From Nocardioides albertanoniae (GTDB lineage: Bacteria; Actinomycetota; Actinomycetes; Propionibacteriales; Nocardioidaceae), in NCBI RefSeq assembly GCF_006716315.1, contig NZ_VFOV01000001.1, positions 1,222,501 to 1,286,500 of the forward strand: 64,000 bases of DNA. The letters run 5' to 3'. The notes beneath the pieces are model-generated. The model was not told the origin of the DNA. It was given only the letters and a program-made list of their open reading frames with translations, and did not search any database. Positions 1,760 through 3,546 of the stretch are shown one piece after another. A program made the position numbers and the translations under genes. The number at the start of each line of letters is the position of its first letter. The first letter of the stretch is position 1.

Positions 1760-2527
1760 ATGACGAACCGTCTCGGGCTCCGCGCCCTCGAGCTCGCCGA
1801 CGCCTGGCACGACCTGGTCGTCGGCGGCAGCTGCATCGGCTGTCGGCGGCCCGGCCGTCTGCTCTGCCGCGAATGTCGTGCGGCGCTACCGACCCAGGCC
1901 CGGTCGCGGCCGCCGGCGCCGGCCCCGACCGGCATCGTCCCGGTCTTCGCCGCCGGACCCTACGAGGGCCTGCTCAAGGAGCTGGTCATCGGCCTCAAGG
2001 AGCATCAGCTCCTCGCGCTCCGTACGCCGCTGGCCGGCCTGCTCGCGCTGTCGGTGCTCGAGGCGATGGTCGCGACCGGCGGTGACCCCAGTGGCGACCC
2101 CGACGCCACCACGATCCTCGTGCCCGTCCCGTCGAGGCCGGCCTCCGTCCGCGAGCGCGGGCTCGACAGCACCTCGGCGATCACCCGTGGTGCGGCCGCG
2201 CTCCTGAGACGGCAAGGGGTCGGCGTACGCCATCATCGGCTGCTGCGCACCAGGCCAGGTGTCGCGGACCAGGCCGGGCTCGACTTCAGGCAGCGGCAGG
2301 CCAACCTCGACGGTTCGATCACCTGCCCGGCGTCCGGCATCCGGACACTCGCCCGAACGACTCCGCGAGCCGGATTCATCGTGTGCGACGACGTGATCAC
2401 GACCGGTGCGACGGCGCGGGACGCTCAGCGAGCGCTGGAATCGGCCGGACTCCGTGTGAAGGGCATCGCGACCGTAGCGGCCACCCAACGTCGGTCTCGC
2501 GTTCAAACCGAGGAAACCATCATGTAA
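1760..2527 (+). CDS. ComF family protein, phosphoribosyltransferase fold
   Basis: A 255-residue ComF/GntX-type protein. These cytoplasmic proteins have a type I phosphoribosyltransferase fold and, in naturally competent bacteria, are linked to DNA uptake; their biochemical substrate is not settled. Near the N-terminus is a zinc finger of two CxxC pairs (CIGC, CREC, about residues 29-45). Near the C-terminus is the PRPP-binding loop CDDVITTGAT. The ATG at 1760 is preferred over an in-frame GTG 24 nt upstream because it gives the usual length before the zinc finger. It lies between lpqB and the hpf leader RNA; ComF genes are often found in this position in actinobacteria. Confidence 0.85.
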   Translation: MTNRLGLRALELADAWHDLVVGGSCIGCRRPGRLLCRECRAALPTQARSRPPAPAPTGIVPVFAAGPYEGLLKELVIGLKEHQLLALRTPLAGLLALSVLEAMVATGGDPSGDPDATTILVPVPSRPASVRERGLDSTSAITRGAAALLRRQGVGVRHHRLLRTRPGVADQAGLDFRQRQANLDGSITCPASGIRTLARTTPRAGFIVCDDVITTGATARDAQRALESAGLRVKGIATVAATQRRSRVQTEETIM

Positions 2528-2671
2528 TTCTCGAGAAGCCCTTTCCTGGGGCACGGCGGCGAACTACCGTCACTACATGGAGTCCGCCTGGGTCCGTGGT
2601 TGCGTCGCAGAGAAGTCCGCAGTGCGGGCATCCGAGCGGCAAGCCGATGCCAGTCGCAGGCGAAGCGGTCC

Positions 2672-2870
2672 ACGTAACCCTAGAGATAGGGGATCACGGT
2701 GCGGCTTAGAGGTAAGTCCTGCCCATGTCTTCCCGTCAGATACGGGAGCCGGCACGGAGAAGGTGGAGTGGCACCAAGCCGCAAAGCCTCAGCAGGCGGT
2801 TGTGGGGTCGAAGACCAGGTCGGCCAGGCGGACTCCTTGTCCCGGAGGTCACATGCGCTGACCATCCGGG
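2672..2870 (+). ncRNA. Structured leader RNA of hpf, probable raiA-motif RNA
   Basis: The 377-bp comF-hpf gap holds no credible gene but a run of perfect hairpins. 2678-2691 is a 5-bp stem capped by a GAGA (GNRA) tetraloop. 2731-2747 is a 6-bp stem. 2775-2802 is a stem containing GCCT/AGGC. 2806-2816 is a GGTC/GACC stem. 2841-2870 is an 11-bp stem with one bulged A. The last hairpin is not followed by a T-tract, so it is not an ordinary terminator. The raiA RNA motif of Actinobacteria and Firmicutes is a roughly 200-nt complex RNA named for its position upstream of raiA/hpf genes, and this matches in place, size and complexity. Exact ends are uncertain. A covariance-model search would be decisive. 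Confidence 0.72.
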
Positions 2871-2904
2871 ATTCCGCCATCCCCCAAGACACCGGGAGGT
2901 ACCC

Positions 2905-3546
2905 ATGGAAGTTGTCGTCACGGCCCGCAACGCCGAGGTCTCAGATCGCTACCGCGCTCACGTAGCCGAGAAGCTCGCGAAGCTCGAGAAGCATGACCAC
3001 CGCATCATCCGGATCAACGTGGAGGTCGACAACGAGCCCAACCCGCGCCAGCACAAGGGCGCGGTGCACGTCGAGCTGACCGCACACTCGAAGGGCCCGG
3101 TCGTCCGGGCCGAGGCGTGTGCCGAAGACAAGATGGGGGCGCTGGACCTGGCCGTTGACAAGATGGCTTCCCAGATGCGCCGCGCTGCCGACCGCCGCAG
3201 GGTTCACCGCGGCCGTCGCACGCCGGTGTCCGTGGGGCAGGCGCTGGCGGGCATCGAGCCCGACGGCCTGGCATCCGAGTCGGACAACGACGACTACGCG
3301 GACGACACGGTGCGCGAGCACCAGGTCGGCCCGATCACGGTGACGGGGGAGGGGCCGTTGGTGGTGCGCGAGAAGACGCATGCCGCCGAGCCGATGACGC
3401 TCGACCAGGCGCTCTACGAGATGGAGCTGGTCGGGCACGACTTCTACCTCTATGTCGACAAGGACTCGACGAGGCCCTCGGTCGTCTACCGCAGGAAGGG
3501 ATACGACTACGGCGTGATCGCGCTCGACCGCACGGATCTCGTCTGA
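2905..3546 (+). CDS. hpf: Long-form ribosome hibernation promoting factor (HPF/RaiA family)
   Basis: A 213-residue long HPF. It binds the 30S subunit in stationary phase or stress and drives formation of inactive 100S ribosome dimers. The N-terminal S30AE domain (about residues 1-100, beginning MEVVVTARNAEVSDRYRAHV) is followed by a linker and the C-terminal dimerisation domain (about 150-213, including FYLYVDKDS and VVYRRKGYDYGVIAL). The start is the ATG at 2905, preceded by GGGAGG at 2894-2899; a longer open frame reaches back to 2725 through the structured leader RNA and is not used. A strong terminator hairpin follows. Expression is probably influenced by the leader RNA. Confidence 0.93.
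   Translation: MEVVVTARNAEVSDRYRAHVAEKLAKLEKHDHRIIRINVEVDNEPNPRQHKGAVHVELTAHSKGPVVRAEACAEDKMGALDLAVDKMASQMRRAADRRRVHRGRRTPVSVGQALAGIEPDGLASESDNDDYADDTVREHQVGPITVTGEGPLVVREKTHAAEPMTLDQALYEMELVGHDFYLYVDKDSTRPSVVYRRKGYDYGVIALDRTDLV

Follow-up and report, generated by a model that had tools for sequence, protein, structure and literature searches.

In regulatory upstream open reading frames and leader peptides, such as those of attenuators, translation of the leader alters the RNA fold upstream of a gene, and tmRNA is an RNA that is both structured and read by ribosomes. Among the RNAs found next to genes for ribosome hibernation factors are those of the raiA motif. According to two papers, raiA RNAs occur in more than 2,500 species and are among the most abundant RNAs of some Clostridia, and their structures have been solved with no settled biochemical function (PMC11706538, PMC11751092). 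The former also gives their neighbours as comFC, upstream in 74%, and raiA/hpf, downstream in 66% (PMC11706538).

Leaderless translation has been described in mycobacteria. There it both requires and needs no more than a 5'-terminal ATG or GTG, and the mRNAs concerned are probably recognised by 70S ribosomes (PMC4633059); a TANNNT element precedes the start by 7-12 nt (PMC3898074), and the hibernation factor RafH would block the recruitment of leaderless mRNAs (PMC10799931).

In this paper, we have analysed a raiA-motif RNA upstream of the hpf gene in a stretch of 64,000 nucleotides from Nocardioides albertanoniae (the window), together with the corresponding loci of its genus and of other Actinomycetia. 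The RNA family itself is known; what is new here is a reading frame that starts with ATG or GTG (RTG) and runs without a stop through the raiA RNA in Actinomycetia. No report of a leaderless frame over a raiA RNA was found in titles and abstract openings; Soares 2024 and Weinberg 2017 might mention one.

Data sets

The genus sample comprised 98 genomes, 89 of which have a match to the raiA model (88 over the cut-off, one copy each). From these, 86 loci were analysed, leaving out G047 and G069 (short contigs) and G075 (partial, below the cut-off). In the class sample a match was obtained in 102 of 394 genomes and 48 of 137 genera, and the 86 of the 102 that lie outside the genus served as a second set (the other-genera loci) for patterns first seen in the genus. 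Control loci were collected with one exact pattern, which gave at least 119 stretches, and were grouped by their record titles; L184, L189, L196, L251, L256 and L286 (unparsed) and L225 (misparsed) were left out, as were L192, L272 and L288, whose exact matches to the raiA 3' core pattern lie on MAG contigs that bear the labels Acidobacteria, beta proteobacterium and Saccharibacteria.

Results

Identity and extent of the RNA

The Rfam scan of the whole window gave a sole match, RF03072 (raiA), at positions 2583-2832 of the plus strand, with 137.9 bits over the full length of the model (positions 1-209) against a gathering cut-off of 101.3 bits, and the RNA is present in a single copy in the source genome. 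We are practically certain that the hairpins of this region form a genuine raiA-motif RNA, i.e. a member of a known family. The preliminary description, which had read several hairpins upstream of hpf as probably such an RNA and had proposed a covariance-model search and a comparison of related genomes as checks, is thus borne out on identity by the former and, as described below, on compensatory base changes by the latter.

The other particulars of that description fared variously. The gap between comF and hpf indeed has 377 nt (2528-2904), lying between the comF-type stop codon at 2525-2527 and the hpf ATG at 2905, the GNRA hairpin at 2678-2691 is real, with a GAGA loop, and the 3' stem ends 34 nt before hpf as had been noted. 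The stem at 2841-2870 does have 11 pairs by reading of the sequence and is not perfect as claimed, having a bulged A at 2864. The region folds better than expected by chance, as described below; the interval assigned to the RNA, 2672-2870, needs correction, for it overruns the end of P1 (2836) by 34 nt and omits 2577-2671, the 5' third of the RNA, which holds the 5' strand of P1, P2 and part of the core. Finally, the gap is not quite gene-free, because an open frame that the description had missed, at 2577-2861, overlies the RNA. The features of the locus are collected in Table 1.

Table 1. Features of the raiA RNA locus, in window positions
Feature	Positions	Strand	Evidence or remarks
comF-type phosphoribosyltransferase gene, upstream	1760..2527	+	TIGR00201, E 1.4e-8, below cut-off
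-35 element TTTCCT, 17-nt spacer	2542..2547	+	footprint of 86 genus loci, two T at 95% and 92%; hexamer counts
-10 element TACCGT (TANNNT)	2565..2570	+	position conserved before predicted +1
raiA-motif RNA with predicted 5' end and extended P1	2577..2836	+	RF03072 match; GGAG/CTCC extension
Predicted leaderless reading frame, 94 codons	2577..2861	+	ATG at predicted +1; stop TGA 2859-2861, just past the RNA
P1a, 5' strand	2579..2591	+	pairs with 2824-2836; begins with the G of the ATG
P2 hairpin	2615..2629	+	2615-2620 with 2624-2629; length varies, in the genus nearly always by threes
P4 enclosing P5	2652..2706	+	P4 2652-2658/2700-2706; P5 2678-2682/2687-2691, GAGA loop
pk-loop core CTTAGAGGTAAGTCC	2705..2719	+	one of three frames contains TAG and TAA
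P6 and P7	2718..2796	+	P6 2718-2722/2792-2796; P7 2731-2736/2742-2747
P1a, 3' strand	2824..2836	+	covariation alignment; the RNA proper ends here
Lineage-specific 3' hairpin	2841..2870	+	no T-tail; stop codon of the frame lies inside
hpf, long-form ribosome hibernation-promoting factor	2905..3546	+	Pfam S30AE and S30AE_C; TIGR00741 over cut-off

The comF-type gene had no match in the Pfam search. The order comF, RNA, hpf, which is the neighbourhood typical of the raiA family, is found in the window and in all 86 genus loci, with 35-454 nt between RNA and hpf, and hpf follows the RNA in 164 of the 172 loci of the two sets together; in L076, L079, L081 and L086 the start of the Rfam match is misplaced in the tallies of gene order, distance and upstream footprint, and later counts are taken from the ATG. 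In one genus outside our own (f18/g40, e.g. L125, L131 and L136) the RNA-to-hpf distance is 305-497 nt in 12 loci, and the frame is still open 212-428 nt past the RNA.

The hairpin at 2841-2870 lies outside the raiA family. A copy with at most 4 substitutions is found in 6 of the 86 genus loci, i.e. the window, L032, L036, L039, L044 and L051, and the Hpf proteins of the latter five are more than 90% identical to that of the window. We rejected it as a terminator, as it lacks a T-tail and is confined to these six loci; positions 2450-3000 contain 0 terminator-like sites.

Fold and covariation

The 377-nt gap as a whole has a folding z-score of -2.24, matched by 4 of 100 shuffles, and the bounded RNA (2577-2836) folds at -123.5 kcal/mol and z = -4.06, matched by none of 200 shuffles. 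In an alignment of 46 of the 86 genus loci, hand-picked to omit most long insertions and near-duplicates, 96.0% of the pair cells are paired (87.5% in shuffles), 22 pairs have changed on both sides (14.8 in shuffles), and there are 190 double-change cells, where shuffles give 62 and slid controls 29-52. P1, P2, P5 and P7 covary in this alignment, P4 and P6 never vary and are hence uninformative, and the pk-loop core is nearly invariant. The cryo-EM structure of the family has two pseudoknots, pk-1 and pk-2. P1 reaches 4 bp past the Rfam model through pairing of GGAG (2579-2582) with CTCC (2833-2836), helix 1 being 99.6% paired; the figures are 72.9% for P2 and 52.4% for the aligned part of the P5 tip. 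Furthermore, the P2 region beats the mean of 20 of its own shuffles in 86 of 86 genus loci and in 85 of 85 class loci.

The promoter and its retention upstream of hpf

The upstream footprint of the 86 genus loci reads TTtcgt, 17 nt, TAnCGT and then CATGGAG. TANNNT stands exactly 7-12 nt before the A of the ATG in 85 of the 86 genus loci and in 62 of the 86 other-genera loci, and is shifted by one base in another 11 of the latter; this is the spacing cited above for mycobacterial start sites. A consensus promoter scan of the locus returned nothing because the -35 box differs from TTGACA, and the footprint is the promoter evidence. The comF stop codon (TAA or TAG) is also the 5' half of the -10 box in 27 of the 86 genus loci (29 when counted from the ATG) and in 14 of the 86 class loci, so that in those relatives comF ends inside the raiA/hpf promoter; in the window it ends at 2527.

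The nine genus genomes without the RNA, in which it has decayed or been deleted, all retain the -10 box and the ATG upstream of hpf (the whole CATGGAG in eight), and a tenth RNA-less genome, G256, likewise retains a TANNNT box and an ATG. The nine form seven separate clades of the Hpf+ComF tree (node supports 0.69-1.0), and a search of their hpf loci for divergent raiA copies, at E values up to 1, found none, the rest of these genomes being searched with stricter filters. That the promoter is kept where the RNA is gone indicates that it serves hpf, and that the raiA RNA is here most likely part of the hpf leader, whatever role it has after processing. A promoter shared with hpf also agrees with the smallest spacing of RNA and hpf, 35 nt. 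The preliminary description had left the choice between a leader and a trans-acting RNA open; in this group the leader is favoured by the retained promoter, while action in trans has been published for Clostridia (PMC11706538). These natural losses (9 of 98 genus genomes, seven clades) amount to ready-made deletions with the promoter still present.

In L090, one of the RNA-less loci, an insertion has left 1342 nt between comF and hpf, and the promoter still adjoins hpf. The frames from the kept ATG in the RNA-less genus genomes are short (7-75 codons). In RNA-less genera of the same family (L304, L306, L308-L311, L316 and L317) an ATG lies 5-8 nt after TANNNT and some 50-80 nt before hpf and is followed by a stop at once or within three codons (ATG TAA, ATG TGA, ATG GCA TGA, ATG CAT TCG TGA), which could possibly be a minimal leaderless start-stop element. 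Altogether, an RTG is found 5-8 nt after TANNNT in 12 of 17 RNA-less loci (other genera and G256), and none in L305 and L312-L315.

A start codon at the predicted 5' end and a frame open through the RNA

Of the 172 Actinomycetia loci, 168 have an RTG at the +1 position predicted from the -10 box: ATG in 86 of 86 in the genus, and ATG in 66 and GTG in 16 of the 86 in other genera. Positions +1 and +2 are paired in P1 in only 45-71% of the loci, so the conservation of the RTG is not explained by pairing; from +3 inward the figure is mostly 95-100%, with one position at 74%. The T at +2 is kept in 169 of the 172 loci, though it is paired in about 70%. As only two changes from ATG to GTG are seen on the Hpf tree, the conservation of the ATG is in part due to common descent.

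The frame of this codon (frame 0) is open to the 3' end of the RNA in 84 of the 86 genus loci and in 73 of the 86 other-genera loci. The two remaining frames are open that far in 7 and 0 of the former and in 6 and 19 of the latter. When the genus loci with stops are counted by region (start to P3, P4/P5, pk-loop, P6-P8), there are 0, 0, 1 and 2 in frame 0, 25, 10, 63 and 47 in frame +1, and 5, 5, 22 and 33 in frame +2. The same count in the 86 other-genera loci (start to P3, P3 core, P4/P5, pk-loop, P6-P8) gives 1, 3, 5, 0 and 10 in frame 0, 27, 4, 6, 29 and 63 in frame +1, and 9, 0, 0, 56 and 34 in frame +2; in P4/P5 outside the genus, loci with stops are thus scarcely rarer in frame 0 (5) than in the two others (6 and 0). 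Openness of frame 0 and the RTG hold in both sets. From these patterns it is very probable that the frame is kept open by selection in the genus; we are less sure that the same would apply to the class as a whole.

Fifteen loci are not open to the RNA end, i.e. 13 of the 86 class loci and L018 and L022 of the genus, and nine of them have hpf (L018, L022, L113, L122, L129, L148, L164, L165 and L178). An RTG with an open frame is present in 155 of the 164 loci with hpf downstream versus 1 of the 8 without it, the eight coming from three families only. Among the hpf-less loci are L096-L099 (f6), L102, L118 and L123 (f40); judged by eye from the translations, the gene after the RNA in such loci is secA-like (f6 loci shown), an MFS-type transporter (f40) or of LuxR type.

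Among the control matches listed, a nearby RTG with a frame open to the RNA end was found in 10 of 109, namely 3 of 27 in Coriobacteriia, 5 of 51 in Clostridia, 1 of 13 in Acidimicrobiia and 1 of 18 in other actinobacterial MAGs. Also among the matches listed, Coriobacteriia use all three frames (9, 7 and 11 of 27), and in Clostridia it is common for a frame that lacks an RTG to pass the pk-loop without a stop (26 of 36, in one frame).

Length changes and frame classes

Length changes were counted by the Fitch method on one midpoint-rooted Hpf tree for the 163 loci with all anchors. In both sets taken together, multiples of three make up 39 of 55 changes upstream of P3 (P 1.4e-8) and, in the stretch from P3 to the pk-loop, 33 of 47 (P 2.6e-7), these P values containing the genus data in which the pattern first appeared. 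The stretch from the pk-loop to P1 gives 12 of 32, with no clear three-step for P6-P8, and the spacer that separates the RNA from hpf gives 40 of 129. When the sets were later separated, the four regions gave 21 of 24 (P 6e-8), 32 of 43 (P 4e-8), 8 of 15 and 23 of 67 in the genus, versus 17 of 31 (P 0.01), 0 of 3, 4 of 17 and 16 of 61 in other genera, where few length changes were available to count. The signal outside the genus being weak, the three-step is to be taken chiefly as a property of the genus.

Between the ATG and the P3 core, 84 of the 86 genus loci have a length divisible by three, and ten such lengths occur; the other two loci are in the second open frame, and none is in the frame in which the core reads TAA. 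The corresponding classes in other genera comprise 59, 25 and 1 of 85 loci, one class locus having failed the P3 anchor. At the pk-loop the frame classes of the other genera hold 54 and 24 loci, with 0 in the stop-containing class and 11 frame changes inferred, and in both sets together 1 of 20 pk-loop frame changes enters the stop-containing frame (P 2e-5, a value to which the genus data of the first observation again contribute). On these counts, the main signal outside the genus is avoidance of the pk-loop stop frame.

Behind the RNA, frame-0 stops within 90 nt are found in 56 of the 86 genus loci versus 30 and 17 for the other frames, and in other genera in 42 versus 26 and 36, no clear excess. 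Selection on this stretch was not relied on, as its length changes have no three-step and the excess of stops is unclear outside the genus. Of 164 loci, 52 have a frame that reaches into the hpf start (11 by one base, TGATG), 81 a frame that stops 0-60 nt short of it, and 31 a frame that stops more than 60 nt short. The hpf starts in this count were projected by tblastn and are only approximate outside the genus; translational coupling as a rule was rejected on the ground that such overlaps are confined to the 52. The one-base overlap, as in translational coupling, is seen in the genus loci L008, L011, L025, L026, L031, L035, L045, L055, L068, L080 and L086.

Reading through or a peptide product

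The GC contents at the three codon positions are 0.77/0.73/0.81 in the P2 region of the genus and 0.66/0.70/0.49 in P4/P5 of other genera, versus 0.72/0.40/0.91 in hpf and 0.68/0.38/0.94 in secA, and the composition of the frame is unlike that of hpf, comF and secA. Furthermore, the window peptide has no Pfam or NCBIfam match, and lineages differ in the frame in which the middle of the peptide is read, two frames being used around the pk-loop. An ordinary protein gene was rejected on the composition and the missing family match, and by the same two observations it seems to be the reading through, not the product, that matters: it appears that the frame itself is kept and not the peptide.

Discussion

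A proposed leader read by ribosomes

The identity and fold of the RNA, the promoter kept without it, the RTG at the predicted +1 and the open frame were all computed from the genomes. An open frame across an RNA that lies beside the gene of a hibernation factor points to the ribosome, and we hold it slightly better than an even chance (a probability of roughly 0.55) that the raiA RNA is a leader of hpf, transcribed from a shared promoter and spanned by a leaderless frame, with the exclusion of P1 closure by translation as the most likely mechanism. The transcript would start with AUG or GUG in the class, with a stop-free frame that usually spans the RNA and ends after it, and a 70S ribosome would load on the 5'-terminal start codon. 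As the G of the ATG is the first base of P1, a ribosome in that place would cover the 5' strand of P1, so that initiation and P1 closure would be mutually exclusive. Ribosomes that have initiated would run through the RNA and unfold it; when leaderless initiation fails, e.g. when Hpf occupies the ribosomes, P1 would close and the compact raiA fold form, which may then remain as a stable RNA, as it does in Clostridia, and alter the output of hpf. Such a competition, which would tie the RNA to ribosome supply, hibernation and hpf, is suggested tentatively, at somewhat less than an even chance. What we infer, beyond the computed features, is the precise start site, translation and its competition with P1, the consequences for hpf, and any role in trans.

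A wider and more doubtful proposal would be that the raiA RNA of Actinomycetia is a translated RNA, read by 70S ribosomes from its first codon across the entire fold, that signals how many active ribosomes are available and governs the level of the hibernation factor, with feedback by Hpf on leaderless initiation, and that the trans-acting RNA of Clostridia is the other state of one molecule. If true, this would be the first mechanistic link of the raiA family to ribosomes.

Other readings of the same patterns

The frame could be a by-product of GC-rich sequence and shared ancestry over a plain structured RNA that acts in trans as in Clostridia, for which published work describes action in trans and not as a cis-acting riboswitch (PMC11706538). 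The non-coding composition, a peptide that varies outside its RNA-constrained parts and the weak three-step outside the genus all agree with this. However, both other frames of these very sequences abound in stops, genus lengths change by threes before the pk-loop and not after the RNA, Coriobacteriia, among the matches listed, are spread over all three frames, and the +1 codon is RTG in nearly every locus; we consider this reading unlikely. Much of the evidence is fitted as well by the idea that leaderless initiation at the promoter is unavoidable and that the frame is open only against polarity, an internal stop exposing the leader to Rho or decay and thereby lowering hpf. The frame is indeed kept mostly where hpf lies downstream, the peptide sequence seems free, and the frames left in RNA-less genomes are short. 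Against it, a change at +2 would abolish the nuisance initiation, yet the T is kept there with pairing in only some 70% of loci, and structured RNA is itself a poor Rho substrate. The polarity reading thus fits much of the same evidence as translation-folding competition, and we regard it as rather improbable.

A classical riboswitch or other ligand-sensing leader of hpf would accord with the Rfam type of the family ('Cis-reg; riboswitch') and with the position of the RNA before hpf in most loci. We set it aside as having a very small chance: inspection of the genus flanks by eye (at most 150 nt each) showed no common element and no expression platform, the RNA-to-hpf spacing is widely variable, no terminator-like site lies in 2450-3000, a reading frame lies over the RNA, and trans complementation is reported for two Clostridia (PMC11706538). 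A dual-function RNA that encodes a real small basic protein, of about 95-125 residues in many loci, would explain a long conserved open frame with an RTG start. It is made very improbable by a codon-position GC without the signature of coding sequence, a pk-loop segment read in two frames across lineages, the absence of a match in Pfam and NCBIfam, and a frame that is shorter or absent in some members. We keep the leader whose leaderless translation would exclude P1 as the preferred reading.

Comparison with known systems

The proposed change of the RNA fold by translation of the leader is shared with attenuator leader peptides; unlike in attenuators, here no conserved peptide or terminator is seen, and the folded element belongs to a family that also includes a free trans-acting RNA. 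With tmRNA the locus would have in common that a structured RNA is proposed to be read by ribosomes, and the likeness is one of analogy only. As in mycobacterial leaderless mRNAs and 5'-terminal small ORFs (PMC4633059, PMC3898074), a TANNNT box stands 7-12 nt before a purine start with an RTG at the predicted 5' end; unlike those ORFs, the frame here overlies a highly conserved folded RNA and its composition is not gene-like. The closest relative remains the raiA-motif RNA itself (ModT in C. difficile), with which the RNA described here shares a full-length match, comF upstream and hpf/raiA downstream, as well as P1, P4-P7 and the pk-loop core, and from which it differs in the absence of an intrinsic terminator in 2450-3000, in a P1 longer by 4 bp, in a promoter upstream of hpf that is kept on loss of the RNA, and in the predicted leaderless frame that covers it.
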